From positions 1 to 64,000 of IMG/VR virus record IMGVR_UViG_3300032053_000002: DNA of 64,000 nt, one strand, 5' to 3'. This stretch comes from a virus. The position numbers were made by a program, and so were the translations under genes. Below the pieces are notes generated by a model that was not told the DNA's origin, searched no databases, and saw only the letters and a list, made by a program, of their open reading frames with translations. This document shows, one piece after another, positions 7,415-41,531 of this stretch (the first letter of the stretch is position 1; each line of letters opens with the position of its first letter).

Positions 7415-8114
7415 ATGGAAAAGAAATTGCCCTGAATGCAATAGAATTATTAAATATTCTACCAAATACTGTTTTAATACGGCCGTAAAGAAAAAAACAT
7501 CGTGCATTTCTTGTTCATTAATTGGTCATATTGTTTCAGATGCAACTCGTAAAAAAATAAGTAAAAAAAGAATTGAGTTAAAATTGGGCGTCGGAAACAA
7601 TAATCCGGCTAAACGAAACGATGTCCGCAAAAAAATTAGTAAGGCTCTTACGGGCAGAAAACGCAACCCATTTAGTCAATCATGGAAAGAAAACCTTAGC
7701 AATGCTCAAAAAATATGGAGGAAAAATCATCCAGAAGATAGAACGGGGAAAAATAGTCCTTTTTATGGAAGACACCACACAGAAGAAACAAAAAGAAAAA
7801 AACGGCTAATCGCGATAGAAAATATAAATAAAAGAAGTGGCCATCCCAGACCAAATTATAATCCAAAGTCTATCTCAATTTTGGAAGAGAAAGCAAAGGA
7901 GCTTGGAATAACGGATCTTCAACACGCTGAAAACGGTGGCGAGTTCTATATTAAAGATTTGGGATATTGGGTAGACGGTTACAGTAAAGAAAAGAATATA
8001 GTTATTGAGTATTATGAAAAACGCCACAAAACGCGGAAAGATCGTGACGAAAGAAGAAGATTGGAAATAACAGAAAAATTAAAATGCAATTTTATAGAAA
8101 TACGAGAATATTAA
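7401..8114 (+). CDS. Homing endonuclease with NUMOD3 motifs and an EDxHD-like nuclease domain
   Basis: 237 residues. An N-terminal zinc-finger-like region has two CxxC pairs (CPEC, CISC). Next come DNA-binding NUMOD3-type motifs (GNNNPAKRNDVRKKIS, GKNSPFYGRHHTEETKRK). The C-terminal domain (ITDLQHAENGGE, GYWVDGYSKEKNIVIEYYEKRH) matches the architecture of the endonuclease at 58582-59187, where the core reads IEIDEKHH. Here the aspartate of that core is tyrosine (IEYYEKRH), so catalysis may be weakened or lost. It lies opposite to its neighbours between the fibre gene and the sbcDC fusion, overlaps the ribbon-helix-helix gene at its start and ends 3 nt into the end of the sbcDC gene. This looks like an inserted free-standing homing gene. 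Confidence 0.8.
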   Translation: MIINKWKRNCPECNRIIKYSTKYCFNTAVKKKTSCISCSLIGHIVSDATRKKISKKRIELKLGVGNNNPAKRNDVRKKISKALTGRKRNPFSQSWKENLSNAQKIWRKNHPEDRTGKNSPFYGRHHTEETKRKKRLIAIENINKRSGHPRPNYNPKSISILEEKAKELGITDLQHAENGGEFYIKDLGYWVDGYSKEKNIVIEYYEKRHKTRKDRDERRRLEITEKLKCNFIEIREY

Positions 8115-11100
8115 TCCATAATAATTTTACTGAAGCCGTTTTCTTTTTGAATTTCCAATGATATATCTACAAGATCTTTTACATAATAAAGATGCGAAAT
8201 CACAATAACAAAATCAAATTGATTTTTGAGATAGTCGAGCATCCGATAAAGATTATTGGCATTATCTGAATCCAGTGAACCGAACCCTTCATCGACCACT
8301 AGAAAATTTGGTCGGGGTAAACTGGTTATACTTAGTAATGCGACTCTCAATGCAACGGACGAAATGAACCGTTCCATTCCGCTAACTAGCTCTATCGGCC
8401 AGATATCCGTACCGCCATACGAAATTTTTGCGAAAATATCTTTTTCCTCGTTATCGACGCTTAAAATAATTCTGAAATCAACTACTTGCGACAGAATATT
8501 ATTTACTTCATTTTCTATTTGTGGAATGACGCTGGAGATCAATTGGAATGGGACTCCATCTCGTTCAACCGATTCCATATAATATTTATACGCATCATAA
8601 TTCTTTTCCAATTCCCGAACATAATCTATTTCTTCGTCCATTTTTCGCTGTTTTTCTTTATTGACTTCTATTTGTGCATTCAAACTCATAACTTCTTGTC
8701 CAACTTCATTGATTCTGGTTTCCACCATTCGCAATTTGCTCTCCCAATCATCTATTTTTGTTTGAACGATAAAGTTTTTTTGGATAATTTGTTTGTTGGT
8801 GTGATATAAAGAAATATTATTTTTAGTCTCTTCTATTTTTTTATTCAATAGTTGAAAATCTTTTTCAGATTGTATTATATTCGACTGAACCAAATTTATT
8901 TTGCTCTCCATATCCAAAAGTTCTTCTTTTAATCTATTGTATTCCGCATATTTTTCTTTGGTTTCTTTTTCAGATGCCAATTTGGTTTCAAAGTTTTTAA
9001 GTTTTTCCTCAAACCCCCGAACAACCAGTTTATCTCGATCAATATCTTCTTTTGTTTTAACTTTGCTTTTTATGAAGTTCTCATTTTCGGTACAACTGTC
9101 GCAAGAAGGATTGAAAACCAATTTTCCGAAATCTCCCAGTTGTTTCAACGCCGCATCTAACTTTATTTTATATTTATCATACGTGTGTTGAGTTTCGTCA
9201 TTACTTCTTTCCATTTCCTGATACATCACATACTTATCAACGATGTTCGAATCAATCATATTTATTTTATTTATCAATCCACTCTTTTCTACTGACAAAG
9301 ATTGCAAAGATAATTTTATATCATTCAATTGCATCTCTTTTTTCGGGAGCAGTTGGATATATTGTTCTAAATCGCTTTCTAATCTTTTAATGTCCGTGAT
9401 AGAAATGTCAATCTTGATCAGATTTTTAGTGAGATTTTTTATTTCCTCATTTATTTGTTTGTATAGTACGTCGCACTCATTTTTTATTCTATTTTTGTTT
9501 TCATATTCTTTTTCCAATCGCGCCAATAAAACTGATATTTCCGCCAAATCCTTTCCAAAATCCCTTTTTTCAAAATCCTGAAGAACCATACTTATTTTTT
9601 TCATTTCGTCGTTCGCGATATTATATAAATCCTGGCACACAAACAAATCTAAGAATCTCATTAGCAAAATCTTCCTATCAACCTGCCGCATGGATATGAA
9701 ATTATTTTTATCGGTTTGAGGCATCAGAGCGGTTAAAGAAAAATCATCAAAGTCGCCCAAATAATTTCGTATAACGATGTTTGTCGAGCTTCGTCTATCA
9801 CTGTTCAGAGATATTTTATCACCGTCGTCTTTCATGTAAAAATTGACATCAACATTTACGTCGCCGTTTTTATTCTTTTTTCCAAGCCGTTTTAATACGA
9901 ACTCTTTATCGTCAATCAAAAAATTCAGCTTTGAACTGAAATATGATTTTTTATTATTCAATACATTTATTGCTTTCCACGCTCTTGGCGACTTATCAAA
10001 TATAGAAAAACACAACGATTCGATAACATTGCTTTTCCCGTATGTATTCGGCCCGAACAATCCAACTATGCCTCTTAATTTCGTAAAATCTATTTTATTA
10101 TGATCCCCATAAGAAAACATATTCGAGAACTCAAAACTTTGCGGTTTCCAGACTATATTACGTTGTATATCCCTTTCGGGTAATTTCAGATTCATTTGTT
10201 CATTTAATTCAAATATACGATTCAGTAAATCTTCTTTAATATTATATTTTTTTTCTAAATATTCTTTAATCAGTTGATTCTGATAATTTATATCTCGTAT
10301 GTCGCCGATATCGATTCGTTTGGATTGATTTGAAGTGGATTGTATTAAATCACCGACTCTCATCTCGATAATTTCTTCTATACATGGGTATTTCTGGCGA
10401 ATCTTGGATATTATTTCGGCAACTTGCGTTACCGATGTATTTCGAATCATCAGACGAATTCTCGCCTTTGAAGGCAAATCACTAATATCTGGCATCGAAT
10501 TGGAGTCAACAATAAGAGTCACGTAGCCATAATCATTTTTAATTTCTATAAATTCTGATTCTCTATTAGGAATATTCCATTTTAGTATGCCGTGCTTTAA
10601 ATCCTCGCCAAAGCTTTGCTGCATTAGCGAACCGCAATATCCAACCGTCTTTTCTTTATTCAAATACTGATGCTTATGAATATCTCCCAGTATAACCATA
10701 TCAAATTCGTCAAAAATCTCCATTTTTATTTTTTCACTGTGAAGGCGAAAACCGGTATCAGATATGGCCTGGTTCACGATTCCGTGATAAACCGCTATTT
10801 TATTATTTCCTAATATTTTATTGGCAGTAATATATTTACTGGGCGAGTCAAAAATTGACATTACACTGAGTTTGATGTCCGCAATTTCATATACATCAGA
10901 ATTTTTCAAATAAAAAAGATTTTTATTATGTATATTTTTTATTACTGGACTAATGACATCCAGTCTAGTGGGATTTGCTAAATTACAGTCGTGGTTACCG
11001 GCGATTACTATGGTTGGAAGAATACCTGACATTTGTTTTAGGAACTCGAAAGTTAAATCAACTTGTTCAGGCGACATTTCCAATTTCGCATGCGCAATAT

Positions 11101-11263
11101 CTCCCGCAATAATTGCGATAGCATTTTGCGTATCTTTTTTTATCACATCGTATAATCGCGCAAATACTTCCCGATACTCTCGATGTCGCCGTAAATTTCG
11201 GATATGAATATCCGCCATGTGAAATACGGTTTCTACTTTATCTAGCCCAACATCTAATCTCAT
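8111..11263 (-). CDS. Fused SbcD-SbcC (gp47-gp46 / Mre11-Rad50) recombination nuclease
   Basis: One 1050-residue chain contains both subunits of an Mre11-Rad50-type complex. Residues ~1-340 are the metallophosphoesterase: MADIHIRN (D/H metal ligands), GDIAH, GNHD near residue 95 and GDIHKHQ near 195. Residues ~360-1050 are the SMC-like ATPase: Walker A GPNTYGKS near 404, long coiled coils with a zinc-hook CDSC near 721, a signature-like VSGMERF, and Walker B NFLVVDEGFGSLD near 991. In T4 these are separate genes 47 and 46. The expected role is processing of DNA ends in recombination-dependent replication and host DNA degradation. It starts 2 nt after the primase stop (at 11265) in the same transcript. 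No stop or frameshift separates the two halves. Confidence 0.93.
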   Translation of the reverse strand: MRLDVGLDKVETVFHMADIHIRNLRRHREYREVFARLYDVIKKDTQNAIAIIAGDIAHAKLEMSPEQVDLTFEFLKQMSGILPTIVIAGNHDCNLANPTRLDVISPVIKNIHNKNLFYLKNSDVYEIADIKLSVMSIFDSPSKYITANKILGNNKIAVYHGIVNQAISDTGFRLHSEKIKMEIFDEFDMVILGDIHKHQYLNKEKTVGYCGSLMQQSFGEDLKHGILKWNIPNRESEFIEIKNDYGYVTLIVDSNSMPDISDLPSKARIRLMIRNTSVTQVAEIISKIRQKYPCIEEIIEMRVGDLIQSTSNQSKRIDIGDIRDINYQNQLIKEYLEKKYNIKEDLLNRIFELNEQMNLKLPERDIQRNIVWKPQSFEFSNMFSYGDHNKIDFTKLRGIVGLFGPNTYGKSNVIESLCFSIFDKSPRAWKAINVLNNKKSYFSSKLNFLIDDKEFVLKRLGKKNKNGDVNVDVNFYMKDDGDKISLNSDRRSSTNIVIRNYLGDFDDFSLTALMPQTDKNNFISMRQVDRKILLMRFLDLFVCQDLYNIANDEMKKISMVLQDFEKRDFGKDLAEISVLLARLEKEYENKNRIKNECDVLYKQINEEIKNLTKNLIKIDISITDIKRLESDLEQYIQLLPKKEMQLNDIKLSLQSLSVEKSGLINKINMIDSNIVDKYVMYQEMERSNDETQHTYDKYKIKLDAALKQLGDFGKLVFNPSCDSCTENENFIKSKVKTKEDIDRDKLVVRGFEEKLKNFETKLASEKETKEKYAEYNRLKEELLDMESKINLVQSNIIQSEKDFQLLNKKIEETKNNISLYHTNKQIIQKNFIVQTKIDDWESKLRMVETRINEVGQEVMSLNAQIEVNKEKQRKMDEEIDYVRELEKNYDAYKYYMESVERDGVPFQLISSVIPQIENEVNNILSQVVDFRIILSVDNEEKDIFAKISYGGTDIWPIELVSGMERFISSVALRVALLSITSLPRPNFLVVDEGFGSLDSDNANNLYRMLDYLKNQFDFVIVISHLYYVKDLVDISLEIQKENGFSKIIMD

Positions 11264-36118: not shown

Positions 36119-36140
36119 TCAATTCTCCCAATACAATTAG

Positions 36141-36489
36141 TGGAGTCGGCGGGGAATCGAACCCCGCGTCCGAAATAGTTCCAAAATCAACATCTACAAT
36201 TATAGTTTGTTTTTATTTTATATCGCGAAAACAAACAAAACATGATAACAACTTTCTTTTAATTCTATGTTGTGAAAGAATGGAGGCCTGACCGAATGGT
36301 CATTCCGGCTACCAGTTGATATGACACCGCTTTTCCCACTATCAACGTCATGGAGCGATGGCGACTTAAATAGTTTTAAGCCGCGTAGGCAAGTGAATAG
36401 TTGCCATTTATTTTTGTTTTTGGTTTTTAACGTCACCCCGACGAATTGCAGTTAATCTTCTACCTACCCCGTCGAATCCGTGCGACCCC
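36141..36489 (-). ncRNA. ssrA: Phage-encoded transfer-messenger RNA (tmRNA)
   Basis: The 5' end GGGGTCG (36489-36483) pairs over 7 bp with CGACTCC at the 3' end, including the G-U pair seen in E. coli tmRNA. Next comes GGATTCGACGGGG, the hallmark of the tmRNA 5' domain (E. coli: CTGGATTCGACGGG). The 3' domain reads AACTATTTCGGACGCGGGG then TTCGATT, matching E. coli GGAATTTCGGACGCGGG plus T-loop. The discriminator is A; CCA is not encoded. An internal frame around 36390-36365 encodes the tag GNYSLAYAA followed by TAA, with resume codon probably GGC after an A-rich stretch. The tag ends in Ala-Ala as needed for ClpXP recognition. Length is about 349 nt. A coding sequence overlaps its 5' end. 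Confidence 0.93.
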
Positions 36490-36755: not shown

Positions 36756-37799
36756 TTATTTTAACAGTAAATGTGGTTGCGCTTCAATTTGCCCAGCGGA
36801 AGTAACTCTTACGAAATCAACTTTTGCGCGAAATTCGTCTAAAGTTCTGGCACCGACATAACTCATGGAAGACTTTAATCCGTCCGTAATAGCCTTTATT
36901 ATTCGTTCCACCTTGCCTTTATAAGCGACAATTTTGCTATTACCTTCGATGTTATCCGTGTTTTCATTTCGATCCATTTTCGCCGATTCCGATGCCGATC
37001 CCTTATATTGTTTATACAATTGCTCGTCAGGAAAGTTCCCTATTCGGATAAACTTCCCAGGGGTTTCCTTTGTTCCAGCAAGAAGTGAACCCAGCATCAC
37101 AAGGTCGGCTCCAGCTCCAATCGCTTTAGCAACATCTCCTGGTGTCCTTATACCGCCATCCGCAATAATTATATTTTTTCCCTGCGTCGCCTCGTAAACG
37201 TCCATTATGGCCGTGAGTTGCGGAATACCGATTCCAGTACGAATGCGAGTTTCGCAAAGAGAACCGTTTCCTTGCCCAACTCTCAGAATATCCACCCCCC
37301 ACTCCAGTTGGTCTGTCGCCGCTTCTTTGGTGGAAATACTACCACCGATAACGATGATGTCTTTTAACTCTTGGCGAAGAGCCTTCATTACGTCTTTCAT
37401 ATGTTTGGAATGCCCATGCGCAATATCAACTATAAAAGTTCTCGCTCCATTCAGATACAATTGTCTAACCCGTTCCAAATAATCACCTGTTGCGCCAACG
37501 GCAAATGGAGTTGCTTCAATTCCCTTATCTCCTATGTATTGTATTTTAAGAGATTGTAGTTGTTCCAATTGCTTATCAATAGGCATAAACCGATGAATAG
37601 TTCCTATTGCTCCCAGTTGATATAAAATTTCAGCCATTTTATATTCTGAAACGGTACTCATTGGCGACGATATTACCGGAACGGAAAGAATTACGTGATC
37701 AGTTACCCACTTTGTTTCTAAAGAGCATTCGCCTCTAGACTCCATATCCGAGTATTTCGGAGCTATTTGCACATCATCGTAAGTCAGACATTCTCTCAT
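36756..37799 (-). CDS. IMP dehydrogenase / GMP reductase family enzyme
   Basis: 347 residues, the size of a CBS-less family member. Motifs: [14 protein letters not shown] at the N-terminus, [28 protein letters not shown] (substrate region), catalytic loop [20 protein letters not shown] with the active cysteine, [31 protein letters not shown] (phosphate site) and C-terminal [15 protein letters not shown]. The enzyme would oxidise IMP to XMP or reduce GMP to IMP, both using nicotinamide cofactors. I cannot separate the two from sequence alone: length and the lack of CBS suit GMP reductase, while SSMSYVGA is IMPDH-like. It is downstream of the NAD synthesis genes, on the same strand. Confidence 0.85.
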
Positions 37800-37811: not shown

Positions 37812-38165
37812 CTAAAATTTTTTATAATCAGGATTATTCATAATAATGTTTTTCCCGAGATCAAGATATAACGTATCTTTACCAGAAAACCTTCTAGTAG
37901 CTGGGAAAAAAATATCCCATACTTTGAGTTGATTAGTTCCGCGTTCCCAATGTCGGCAATAACACCTAATCTCATCATCGCCTTGATAAAATACTAAAAT
38001 ATATTGATAAGTTTCGCCGACCTTATATGTTTCGGCCAGTGGTTTCTTATTCGACAATATTTCAGTTTGAACGGTATTATGAATTCCATAAAATATCAAA
38101 AAAACAAATATCAATGAAATAAAAAATATCCACGGTACACCGGCGTGATTTTGTTTTTGGTTCAT
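37812..38165 (-). CDS. Single-pass membrane protein, unknown
   Basis: 117 residues with one N-terminal transmembrane helix (WIFFISLIFVFLIFYGIH) and a small soluble domain containing KVGETYQYILVFYQGDDEIRCYCRHWERG. It lies between the nicotinamidase and IMPDH/GMPR genes with 12-16 nt gaps, so it is in the same operon. No family recognised. Confidence 0.55.
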   Translation of the reverse strand: MNQKQNHAGVPWIFFISLIFVFLIFYGIHNTVQTEILSNKKPLAETYKVGETYQYILVFYQGDDEIRCYCRHWERGTNQLKVWDIFFPATRRFSGKDTLYLDLGKNIIMNNPDYKKF

Positions 38166-38181
38166 TACATCATTTCCTTTC

Positions 38182-38994
38182 TTATTTTATTATAAAATCT
38201 TTAGTGTTTGAAACTTGCACACCCATCGCTACCATCGACTTAATGAAATCGTCTTGAAGTTGTTCGAATCCGCTAACGGGACTCATACCATCTTCCAATA
38301 ATACAAGTTTTTCTGGTGAGATACCATCAAGTAAAAACTCGGATACAATATCCTTTACGGTATTGGCGACGCAATGCGAACCAGCTTCACCGACCACAAG
38401 AACCGAGTCGCAATCCTCCAGCGTTTCGATAAGTTTAATGTTTGTCAGGGTTGATGGGTCGTTCATGTCAGGAACGTCGGCTTTAATCGCTGAATAGTGC
38501 TCAGTGAAAGAATTACTCCCTTTGGTGATATAATTCACGTTTGTCGCATATTTTTGCTCCCACTCTTTTAACGTGTCGAATAGTGGTTGCATAACGGCCT
38601 GCCCATCACTTCCAATCAGACAGTGCGGAGGCCAGATACATAATGGGTAACGTTTGTTCTCTTCCAATGATTTTATGTAGTGCAAAGCCTGTTTGAATGT
38701 ACCTGGAATGAAGGGCAACCAGGTTGCTGCCAATACATCTTCCAATTTAATAATAGTATACGGGAGCGGGTGATTACCATTAACATCCACCCAGAAAATC
38801 GGATGTGCAATATGAACGGTTTGATGCGTATCTAGAGTTACGTGAATATAACGAAGTTTTTCGCCAATCCGTTTAATTAAGTCCGATATTCTTTCTATAT
38901 CCTTTTCTGCATTCTTCACATATAAAACGTTTTTTATCGGGTCGCAAAAATCTACTTGCGGATCGATGATAAGTAAATCAATTTTTTTATTCAT
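38182..38994 (-). CDS. pncA: Nicotinamidase (isochorismatase-fold hydrolase)
   Basis: 270 residues. The catalytic triad of the nicotinamidase family is visible: Asp in IIDPQVDFCDP, Lys in NYITKGSN, and nucleophilic Cys in VVGEAGSHCVANTV. Metal ligands appear in VTLDTHQTVHIAHP, and the WPPHCLIGSDG segment is typical of nicotinamidases. The enzyme converts nicotinamide to nicotinate, feeding the Preiss-Handler route to NAD. The next gene upstream (3 nt gap) is nicotinate phosphoribosyltransferase, its direct successor in the pathway, and NAD synthetase lies 1.6 kb further upstream. Somewhat longer than bacterial PncA (about 210 residues). Confidence 0.9.
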   Translation of the reverse strand: MNKKIDLLIIDPQVDFCDPIKNVLYVKNAEKDIERISDLIKRIGEKLRYIHVTLDTHQTVHIAHPIFWVDVNGNHPLPYTIIKLEDVLAATWLPFIPGTFKQALHYIKSLEENKRYPLCIWPPHCLIGSDGQAVMQPLFDTLKEWEQKYATNVNYITKGSNSFTEHYSAIKADVPDMNDPSTLTNIKLIETLEDCDSVLVVGEAGSHCVANTVKDIVSEFLLDGISPEKLVLLEDGMSPVSGFEQLQDDFIKSMVAMGVQVSNTKDFIIK

Positions 38995-38997
38995 AAT

Positions 38998-40161
38998 TTA
39001 TCGTCCTTTAATTTCTTGTAATGCGCGTTTAATCATATCTTTATTTCCCGTATATTTTGTTTTCGAGTCGCTCAACTTTATCGTCGGTATCCATTTACCG
39101 TTTCCATCTGGATCCGCTGCGGTCATTTTGATTACCATATTCAGAGGTTTAACTTCAGGAATATCATTCGTAAGATAAGTGCCGATGCCGTAAGAAGTCT
39201 TGATGCGACCATTAACATATTTTTCTATTTTTTTCACAAAGTCGTAGTTTAGGCCGTCCGAAAATACTATTGTTTTGGAAAGCGGATCGATTCTCAATTT
39301 TTCATAGTGTTTGATTGCTTTATCTGCGAACTCAAACGGCGAACCCGAATCCTGTCGTACACCGTCAAACAATTTTGCGTACAGGGTATCAAATGACCGA
39401 AAGAATTCGTCGGACGTGAACGTATCAGTTAACGCGATTCCGAGATTACCGTGATACGCATCCACCCATCTACCCAATGCAACTCTTGTCGCCATTTTGA
39501 AACCGTATTTAGCGGCGTGAAACATATACCACTCGTGAGCCTGAGTTCCTATCGGAGTTAAATCATATTTGTGCGCAAGACTAACGTTGCTGGTTCCGAC
39601 AAAGTTTTTATTGGGAGAAAATGTACTAACCATCAGGTTTTGATACCAATACGCATAACGTCGGCGTGTTCCAAAGTCGGCGAATTTTATACCAAGTGCT
39701 TTAAACTTTTCGGATTTTTTATTGATAAGTTCCGTAACTTTACCGAATTCACCGGTCATATCAACATTTTTACGAACCATTGCATAATTCAATTCACTAA
39801 TCATCGCCATCAACGGAACTTCCCAGAGAATTGTGCGATACCAGTACCCCTCGATAACTACTTTTAAGTCGCCACCATTCTGAGTTATTTTGACTTCGTT
39901 CGGGTCGTATTTATACCCTTCGAGTAAATCTAAATAAACGGGGTCGAAGAAATAGCACTTATCTCTTAAAAACTCTTTTTCCGACTTTAATAGTGATGGT
40001 ATTTTCCGCAATTCATCTTTTAATTGTGCTCCCAAATACTTTGGAAATCTGTGTTTTCCGCGATTGATAAACTCATATCGAACTTTCGCGTTGGGATATA
40101 ATTTCGCGACAGCTAGTTGCATCGAGAATTTATACAAATCAGAATCGAGAATTGAAATCAT
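38998..40161 (-). CDS. pncB: Nicotinate phosphoribosyltransferase
   Basis: 387 residues, close to E. coli PncB (400). Motifs: LDSDLYKFSMQLAVAKLYPNAKVRYEFINRG at the N-terminus, FADFGTRRRYAYWYQ (substrate loop), GTSNVSLAHKYDLTPIGTQAHEWYM with the His-Glu-Trp seen in the family, TDTFTSDEFF and DGVRQDSGSPFEFADKAI for phosphoribosyl binding. It condenses nicotinate with PRPP to nicotinate mononucleotide. It forms a pair with nicotinamidase 3 nt downstream. The adenylyltransferase NadD needed for the next step is not seen in the window. Confidence 0.92.
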   Translation of the reverse strand: MISILDSDLYKFSMQLAVAKLYPNAKVRYEFINRGKHRFPKYLGAQLKDELRKIPSLLKSEKEFLRDKCYFFDPVYLDLLEGYKYDPNEVKITQNGGDLKVVIEGYWYRTILWEVPLMAMISELNYAMVRKNVDMTGEFGKVTELINKKSEKFKALGIKFADFGTRRRYAYWYQNLMVSTFSPNKNFVGTSNVSLAHKYDLTPIGTQAHEWYMFHAAKYGFKMATRVALGRWVDAYHGNLGIALTDTFTSDEFFRSFDTLYAKLFDGVRQDSGSPFEFADKAIKHYEKLRIDPLSKTIVFSDGLNYDFVKKIEKYVNGRIKTSYGIGTYLTNDIPEVKPLNMVIKMTAADPDGNGKWIPTIKLSDSKTKYTGNKDMIKRALQEIKGR

Positions 40162-40177
40162 AACTTATCCTATTTAA

Positions 40178-40411
40178 TTAAAATAAAATTTTCATAAAAA
40201 CCGTGACCAAAATAAACCATATAGCAAATGAAAACATCATACCGCATGCCATTAGAAATAATATACTATCCCATTGTTTGCTGGTATGCGCAGAAAAATT
40301 TGTATCCAGTTTTTTATCGATTTCATCACTTTGTTTTTGCCAAAATATAGCCAATCCTGCTCCAGAAAGTATAACAACCAAAACCCAAAGTAATCCTTTA
40401 AGAAAAATCAT
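40178..40411 (-). CDS. Small two-helix membrane protein
   Basis: 77 residues with two hydrophobic helices (FLKGLLWVLVVILSGAGLAIFW and SILFLMACGMMFSFAIWFILVTVF) and a charged loop between. ATG at 40411 follows AGGAGAAG. It sits between pncB and nadE in the same operon. No family recognised. Confidence 0.55.
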   Translation of the reverse strand: MIFLKGLLWVLVVILSGAGLAIFWQKQSDEIDKKLDTNFSAHTSKQWDSILFLMACGMMFSFAIWFILVTVFMKILF

Positions 40412-40425
40412 AACTTCTCCTATTT

Positions 40426-40623
40426 TTATTCATAATTCTTTAATATATAATCTATTTCATTTAAAAGTTTTTTCATTTTTCTTTTATATTGGTTTATTTC
40501 ATTTTTGGTGTCTTCTCTACGTATCATTGAACGTAATGTATTAGCATACTTTAAAGCATCAAACGCACAACTATATAAATAATCGTATGCGATTTTTTCA
40601 TTAAGATTTACTGGTAAACTCAT
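40426..40623 (-). CDS. Hypothetical helical protein
   Basis: 65 residues, helical, ending with RKMKKLLNEIDYILKNYE. ATG at 40623 overlaps the nadE stop by four bases, so it is translationally coupled to NAD synthetase. No family recognised. Confidence 0.5.
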   Translation of the reverse strand: MSLPVNLNEKIAYDYLYSCAFDALKYANTLRSMIRREDTKNEINQYKRKMKKLLNEIDYILKNYE

Positions 40624-41531
40624 TCTATTTCTTCCTTTATCAATTTTCTTCTTGAAATATTATACGGATTATTTCTTTTAAATTCCGATTTTAAATGTCG
40701 CCGAATAACTGAGTGGTCTTCATCTACCTCGCGACCGTGAGTATAATCACTTAAAATTTCATCAACTTCTTCGTATGTCTTTGCTCCCAATTGTTCCAGA
40801 TCAGAGTTTGTTATTCCTAACCCATCAGTCGGAACGGCATCTATACATAACCGCATGGCTTCCGCTTTTTTAAAATCCTGGTTGCATCCAGACGAGTAAT
40901 CATTTAAAAGGTATTTTGATAATGTATACACTTCGGTTTTCCAGAGATTCTGTATCATACCAAAGTCACCCACGTCGCCGTGAAGTGTCCAGAATCCGAG
41001 TAAATACTCGGTATAATTGTCAGTACCCAAAACCATTCCTTTATTAGTATACGCAAGATTATACAGGTAAATCATTCGCAGTCGTGCTTTGATATTTCCC
41101 CTACGTATTTTTTCTTCCATCTCATTCGCCATCAGAACATATTTTTCAGTAACATCCATTTCCACATTAAAAAAAGTAGCGAGCAAATCTGTATTTTCCC
41201 TAAAATCAGTACAAAACGCTTCGCCGGTAGCAATCGCCCTTTTTTGTTCTTCGTCCGTGTTCGTTTCAATCGGCAAACTGCGACCAATCAACGGAATACC
41301 TAAATGTCTGCAAACCGGTTCGGCTATTGCACAACATAACGCACTGTCTATACCGCCAGATACACCGATGATCAGTGATTTTATTTTGTTGGTTACGATA
41401 TAAACATCGAGCATATCCTGAATAGTTTTAATAACCGACGCGGCTTCTTTTTCTGTTATAAATGTCGCCTCTTTTGCTAATACTTTTTCGGTGGCGTCCA
41501 TCACTTCTTTCAATGTTATTCCGATAGTCAT
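40620..41531 (-). CDS. nadE: NAD synthetase, ammonia-type
   Basis: I choose ATG at 41531 (MTIGITLKEVMDAT), which has GGAGAAG just upstream; an upstream start would add 10 residues. About 303 residues. The PP-loop SGGIDSALCCAIAEPV binds ATP pyrophosphate. The segment RGNIKARLRMIYLYNLAYTNKGMVLGTDNYTEYLLGFWTLHGDVGDFG is the NadE substrate and ammonia region, and GLGITNSDLEQLG is a third family motif. No glutaminase domain is present, so it should use ammonia. It converts nicotinate adenine dinucleotide to NAD. Same operon as pncA and pncB. Confidence 0.9.
   Translation of the reverse strand: MTIGITLKEVMDATEKVLAKEATFITEKEAASVIKTIQDMLDVYIVTNKIKSLIIGVSGGIDSALCCAIAEPVCRHLGIPLIGRSLPIETNTDEEQKRAIATGEAFCTDFRENTDLLATFFNVEMDVTEKYVLMANEMEEKIRRGNIKARLRMIYLYNLAYTNKGMVLGTDNYTEYLLGFWTLHGDVGDFGMIQNLWKTEVYTLSKYLLNDYSSGCNQDFKKAEAMRLCIDAVPTDGLGITNSDLEQLGAKTYEEVDEILSDYTHGREVDEDHSVIRRHLKSEFKRNNPYNISRRKLIKEEIE

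Follow-up and report, generated by a model that had tools for sequence, protein, structure and literature searches.

A predicted three-enzyme nicotinate route to NAD+ in a T4-like jumbo phage and its recurrence in other large phages

Several described pathways rebuild nicotinamide adenine dinucleotide (NAD+) from nicotinamide. In the KVP40-type salvage pathway, equivalent to NARP2 (NadV and NatV/NadM, sometimes NadR), phage genes use nicotinamide and phosphoribosyl pyrophosphate (PRPP): a nicotinamide phosphoribosyltransferase (NAMPT) produces nicotinamide mononucleotide (NMN), which is converted to NAD+ by a Nudix-linked NMN adenylyltransferase (NMNAT). The phage system NARP1 (Adps and Namat) also starts from nicotinamide, but employs ADP-ribose and two enzymes (PMC12774641). 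Here we describe a cluster encoding a nicotinamidase (PncA), a nicotinate phosphoribosyltransferase (PncB) and an NAD+ synthetase (NadE), located within bases 1-64000 (the whole stretch analyzed, hereafter the window) of the 292,723-base IMG/VR virus record IMGVR_UViG_3300032053_000002. The record represents a T4-like jumbo phage, as indicated by matches to terminase, portal, major head protein, baseplate and DNA polymerase.

Like the KVP40-type genes, the encoded enzymes would remake NAD+ from nicotinamide and PRPP. However, in the window deamidation comes first and amidation by NadE last, and the phosphoribosyltransferase, in contrast to the enzymes of NARP1, is predicted to be specific for nicotinate. 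Three of the four steps of the bacterial Preiss-Handler route (PncA, PncB, NadD, NadE) are covered by the same enzymes, whereas the window set is phage-borne and clustered, NadD is not in the record and PncA is an uncharacterised long form. Surveys from 2021 and 2022, which cover jumbo phages and NAD/ADP-ribose systems, list NadV, NadM and NadR as the phage enzymes of NAD synthesis (PMC7824862, PMC9503650). Since only these are named there, the window route would constitute a distinct, deamidated variant. Scattered pncB or nadE genes of Barba19A, Atu_ph07, cyanophages, phage G and snow phages represent single enzymes of the same route. Those of Barba19A, Atu_ph07 and the snow phages have been reported singly (PMC6715854, PMC6102473, PMC11097641), and a joint PncA-PncB-NadE module is not discussed in the accessible parts of these papers. 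No description of such a phage module was found among the openly accessible papers searched. The module is composed of ordinary enzymes and is uncommon as a phage module, while being recurrent (see below).

The three genes, all with intact reading frames, are arranged as follows:

40620..41531, minus strand: NadE, ammonia-dependent NAD+ synthetase (303 aa from ATG 41531; 313 aa from TTG 41561)
38998..40161, minus strand: PncB, nicotinate phosphoribosyltransferase, 387 aa (curated family scores)
38182..38994, minus strand: PncA, long-form nicotinamidase, 270 aa (catalytic residues, profile comparison with the PDB, fold search)

An earlier note, made from the nucleotide sequence, had placed PncA, PncB and NadE at 38182-41531. 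These coordinates are exact, with the right edge at the NadE ATG, and the enzyme identities were borne out, by curated cut-offs for PncB and NadE and by six residues and the fold for PncA.

PncB exceeded the curated, nicotinate-specific cut-offs (NF003704, 434.5 bits versus 379; TIGR01514, 395.9 versus 269.55), and its best relative in the PDB was 2im5 (2e-88). An alignment of 11 phage sequences revealed an invariant His209 within the motif GTQAHEW, presumably the active-site phospho-histidine. The assignment of PncB as a NAMPT (NadV) was ruled out by the nicotinate-specific scores, and nicotinate rather than nicotinamide is its predicted substrate. PncB is also the sole protein of the nicotinate phosphoribosyltransferase (NAPRTase) family in the whole record; there is thus no NadV in it. 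In this way both the Preiss-Handler reading of the earlier note and the contrast that it drew with the NAMPT-based phage pathways hold. No convincing NadM was detected in the record either (Pfam CTP_transf_like and a phage NadM hidden Markov model, HMM), so neither NARP2 enzyme, NadV (NAMPT) or NadM (NMNAT-Nudix), has a convincing counterpart there. As regards NARP1, the record contains no PRPP-synthetase-like protein and PncB as its only NAPRTase-family protein; no search aimed at Adps was made.

NadE was identified by TIGR00552 (130.8 bits versus a cut-off of 63.65) and by PF02540 (1.9e-34), which is its sole Pfam match; the protein has no glutaminase domain. In the 313-aa frame, the P-loop SGGIDS is found at residue 68. 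The sequence shares 45-52% identity with the NadE proteins of other large phages. A GGAGAA site lies just upstream of ATG 41531 and none precedes TTG 41561, the start chosen by the open reading frame (ORF) tool; ATG 41531 was therefore taken as the start codon.

The case for PncA rests on residues, profile and fold. Across five aligned phage sequences, D11, D55, H57, H124, K158 and C208 were invariant, and they aligned with yeast Pnc1. We take D11, K158 and C208 to be the catalytic Asp-Lys-Cys, and D55 and H57 (D-x-H) together with H124 (the histidine of WPxHC) to be metal-binding. A PncA profile compared with the PDB retrieved the yeast nicotinamidase Pnc1 first (5.3e-13). Nicotinamidases were also the top Foldseek matches (E 3e-8) of the predicted structure (mean predicted local distance difference test score, pLDDT, 78), with other isochorismatase-like hydrolases close behind. 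From sequence and model, nicotinamide is the likely substrate. A Variovorax megaplasmid carries an annotated long PncA adjoining NUDIX, macro-domain and NAD kinase genes, a neighbourhood that favours an NAD-linked role of the long form.

Taken together, three of the four steps by which the deamidated Preiss-Handler route leads from nicotinamide to NAD+ are probably covered by phage enzymes, likely in order to keep up or rebuild NAD+ during infection. PncA would convert nicotinamide to nicotinate, and PncB would combine nicotinate with PRPP to give nicotinate mononucleotide (NaMN). The host NadD would adenylate NaMN to nicotinate adenine dinucleotide (NaAD), and the phage NadE would amidate NaAD to NAD+. 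Nicotinamide released from NAD+ by host NADase defences or by ADP-ribosylating enzymes may be part of what enters the route, and the NAD+ pool could be kept up or rebuilt throughout a long jumbo-phage infection. We infer that the enzymes are active and the genes co-transcribed, that host NadD is used and that there is a defence-related benefit. In bacteria, NadD enzymes as a rule prefer NaMN to NMN, and phages of the NAMPT type often bring their own NMN adenylyltransferase. Because the predicted route passes through NaMN, the preferred substrate of nearly every bacterial NadD, the phage could leave out this step. Phages with the trio are accordingly predicted to need the host's NadD, except where they encode one themselves.

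The distribution of the module was examined by alignment-based scans of viral sequences, which yielded 80 NadE loci and 51 PncA loci; a single-sequence PncA scan of viral contigs had found none. Co-occurrence was counted within 10 kb on loci distinct at 90% identity. PncB lies near 43 of the 64 distinct NadE loci and PncA near 37/64, with both present in 31/64. Since PncA, PncB and NadE recur together in dozens of viral loci, their association exceeds chance. PncB relatives were found in 17 IMG/VR loci (one pattern scan) and in 14 of 50,697 GenBank phage records; two of the 14 (“Acinetobacter phage MD-2021a”) were set aside as likely contamination, their annotated neighbourhood being bacterial.

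In some phages the route appears complete. All four steps are encoded within 4.9 kb in gut phage MT835470 and within 8.2 kb in the 735-kb phage LR756501, in the latter case with a NadR-like enzyme. In the isolate Sinorhizobium phage Phosso, NadE and PncB lie together with an adenylyltransferase and an isochorismatase-family hydrolase within approximately 5.5 kb, and a 329.8-kb phage (G004) combines the trio with a separate NadD elsewhere in the genome (TIGR00482, 117.8 versus 112.45). A widespread nicotinate route would mean that catalogues of anti-defence systems may miss many NAD+-rebuilding phages. In the PncB tree, phage and bacterial sequences are interleaved and most forks are open, the only firm groups being Phosso/Atu_ph07 and G014/G018, each separate. 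The phage PncBs fall into at least three groups, the main one interleaved with bacterial sequences, which suggests repeated acquisition.

A further phage, LR745208.1, has PncA and NadE without a PncB match. It encodes a 383-aa protein (L078:1486-2634, minus strand) with a NadD-like C-terminal CTP_transf_like domain and an N-terminal part resembling, by eye, the CinA/PncC NMN deamidase domain.

The long PncA has a second type of neighbourhood. Of the 47 clustered viral relatives of the window protein, most have genes for a vWA protein, a PP2C phosphatase and a protein kinase downstream on the same strand. At the 42 distinct long-PncA loci, vWA was present in 34, PP2C in 33 and the kinase in 34, usually in the order vWA, PP2C, kinase; on representatives the families are Pfam VWA, PP2C_2 and Pkinase. 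According to the accessible part of one report, the TerY-P triad consists of vWA, PP2C and a Ser/Thr kinase (PMC11090510). The phage triad matches this composition in a single cluster, the likeness being one of domain make-up. In the accessible parts of the TerY-P papers, no nicotinamidase is mentioned with the known systems (PMC11090510, PMC4978471). Some long-PncA loci (L118-L166) also contain PncB, NadE, NadD or NadM, and NADAR; at one of them (L143), NADAR, NadD, PncA, vWA, PP2C, kinase, PncB and NadE are found together. The PncA-vWA-PP2C-kinase cassette of related phages represents an unexplained connection of NAD metabolism with TerY-P signalling. The triad may regulate the NAD enzymes, or it may be a separate defence cassette.

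It is conceivable, if rather doubtful, that large phages share a third NAD+ rebuilding module, deamidated and possibly borrowing host NadD, and that in many of them the nicotinamidase is wired into a phosphorylation-controlled vWA-PP2C-kinase switch. Such a switch would respond to infection or to a loss of NAD by turning on NAD rebuilding or inter-phage defence. According to a related proposal, which draws on the frequency and order of the triad described above, the long PncA belongs mainly to a cassette for TerY-P-like signalling or defence, and its adjacency to PncB and NadE in the window is a secondary or parallel use. We consider it improbable: long-PncA relatives in large phages precede such a triad, whereas the window phage record has no PP2C or kinase of the triad families and only one distant vWA. 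Moreover, PncA is separated from PncB by only 3 bases in the window, and many phages have PncA, PncB and NadE without the triad.

Several observations weigh against the proposed NAD+ route. PncA scored below the curated cut-offs (PF00857, 23.1 versus 27; NCBIfam NF008623, 30.2 versus 174), and because the nicotinamidase cut-offs were not reached its substrate is a presumed one. Most long-PncA relatives have neither PncB nor NadE within 10 kb, and the long form may therefore have another partner function. The route presupposes NadD and a free nicotinamide pool in the host. A PRPP synthetase-like protein is likewise absent from the record, and a search of all 292.7 kb (the Pfam CTP_transf_like family, HMMs built on phage NadD and NadM sequences, and a motif scan) gave no convincing NadD. 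The record is probably incomplete, as the first open frame continues past base 1. The earlier statement that only NadD is missing thus stands for the recovered record and, since this ends inside a gene, is limited to it.

An 895-aa protein (277070-279754; L013:4067-6754, minus strand) has a central HIGH-type nucleotidyltransferase domain, with which the phage might instead supply its own adenylyltransferase. This domain is the sole CTP_transf_like match in the record, contains the motifs GRFQPFHSGH and ISGSQIR and weakly matches a Francisella NMNAT (E 0.005). However, the protein matches no NCBIfam NadD or NadM model, lies approximately 235 kb from the NAD genes among structural-type genes, and carries the domain fused to others. 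Its relatives occur in the 484-kb phage LR756508 (full-length) and in Microcystis phage Mel-JY01, and the window PncB matches neither phage; we regard this assignment as quite unlikely. Inspected by eye, the protein resembles ParB at its N-terminus and a ligase at its C-terminus, where it has a KTDG motif. Still harder to credit is the idea that the NAD genes are passengers or decaying genes without function. The absence of NadD and the divergence of PncA could be read in this way, but the frames are intact, ribosome-binding sites are present, and the catalytic residues are retained at approximately 45-58% identity to relatives.

As to the benefit for the phage, a purely metabolic supply of NAD(H) for replication and for NAD-using phage enzymes, unrelated to defence, has only just less than an even chance of being the explanation. 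It is consistent with the NAD-dependent DNA ligase of several module-bearing phages, located near the module in G003, G014 and G018. It is also consistent with the IMP dehydrogenase (IMPDH)/GMP reductase (GMPR) family enzyme encoded in the same gene run, with the sugar-nucleotide enzymes that we believe, from the impression given by their sequences, to be encoded at 145-182 kb, and with the metabolic interpretation of snow phages carrying NAD genes in the accessible part of that study (PMC11097641). However, no NAD-dependent DNA ligase was found in the window record, and such a ligase was thereby ruled out as the reason for the module in this phage. The same genome also encodes a NADAR-like protein (105480-105947; L004:3479-3946, minus strand) and a Macro-domain match (192261-192611, minus strand). 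Their families are both linked to ADP-ribose processing, and the two genes fit an NAD/ADP-ribose conflict. Together with the predicted use of an NADase product as substrate, they speak for a conflict role. A counter-defence role is likewise plausible, with NAD supply for replication as an equal rival. As a dedicated function, in which the module would mainly undo NAD+ depletion by TIR/SIR2-type effectors, like NARP1 and NARP2 but with other enzymes, it is held tentatively, at somewhat below an even chance. In its favour, nicotinamide, the predicted substrate of PncA, is the product of NADases, the principle has been shown by NARP1 and NARP2 (PMC12774641, PMC13232231, PMC12028318), and surveys have put this role forward for NAD synthesis by phages generally (PMC9503650, PMC7824862). 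On the other hand, for the present enzymes the role is suggested by analogy, and a four-step route costs PRPP and several ATP, which are perhaps scarce in a dying cell. PADLOC found no defence family among the module proteins, its library covering defence and not counter-defence.

The NAD genes form part of a longer minus-strand run, in the order NadE, 65-aa ORF, 77-aa ORF, PncB, PncA, 117-aa ORF and IMPDH/GMPR-family gene. The remaining members of the run are:

40426..40623, minus strand: 65-aa ORF between NadE and PncB, with a 4-base overlap with the NadE stop; no Pfam or PHROG match
40178..40411, minus strand: 77-aa ORF with two hydrophobic segments (by eye) and a GGAG site upstream; no Pfam or PHROG family
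37812..38165, minus strand: 117-aa ORF with an N-terminal hydrophobic segment, 16 bases past PncA and in the same gene run; no Pfam or PHROG family
36756..37799, minus strand: IMP dehydrogenase / GMP reductase family enzyme, 347 aa, without a CBS domain (PF00478, 4.9e-95); last gene of the run

Adjacent genes are separated by at most 16 bases or overlap slightly. It is from this spacing that we infer a single operon with co-transcription of the NAD genes. The tight same-strand arrangement agrees with the operon proposed in the earlier note, whereas a promoter/terminator scan gave no signal above that of shuffled sequence. The IMPDH/GMPR-family protein falls under the NCBIfam cut-offs for both enzymes and retains the catalytic loop GNGSLCETR; it may use NAD(P), or it may be unrelated to the module.

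A full-length transfer-messenger RNA (tmRNA) gene is located 3′ of the IMPDH/GMPR-family gene (36138-36489, minus strand; Rfam RF00023, 140.9 bits; ARAGORN tag GNYSLAYAA). Elsewhere in the window, at 8111-11263 (minus strand), a 1050-aa chain joins a metallophosphoesterase to an SbcC-like ATPase, a fusion of the SbcD-SbcC type. Beyond the window, at approximately 145-182 kb of the record, a long run of genes resembling, by eye, those for sugar-nucleotide epimerases/dehydratases, glycosyltransferases and methyltransferases appears to form a large surface-polysaccharide cluster.

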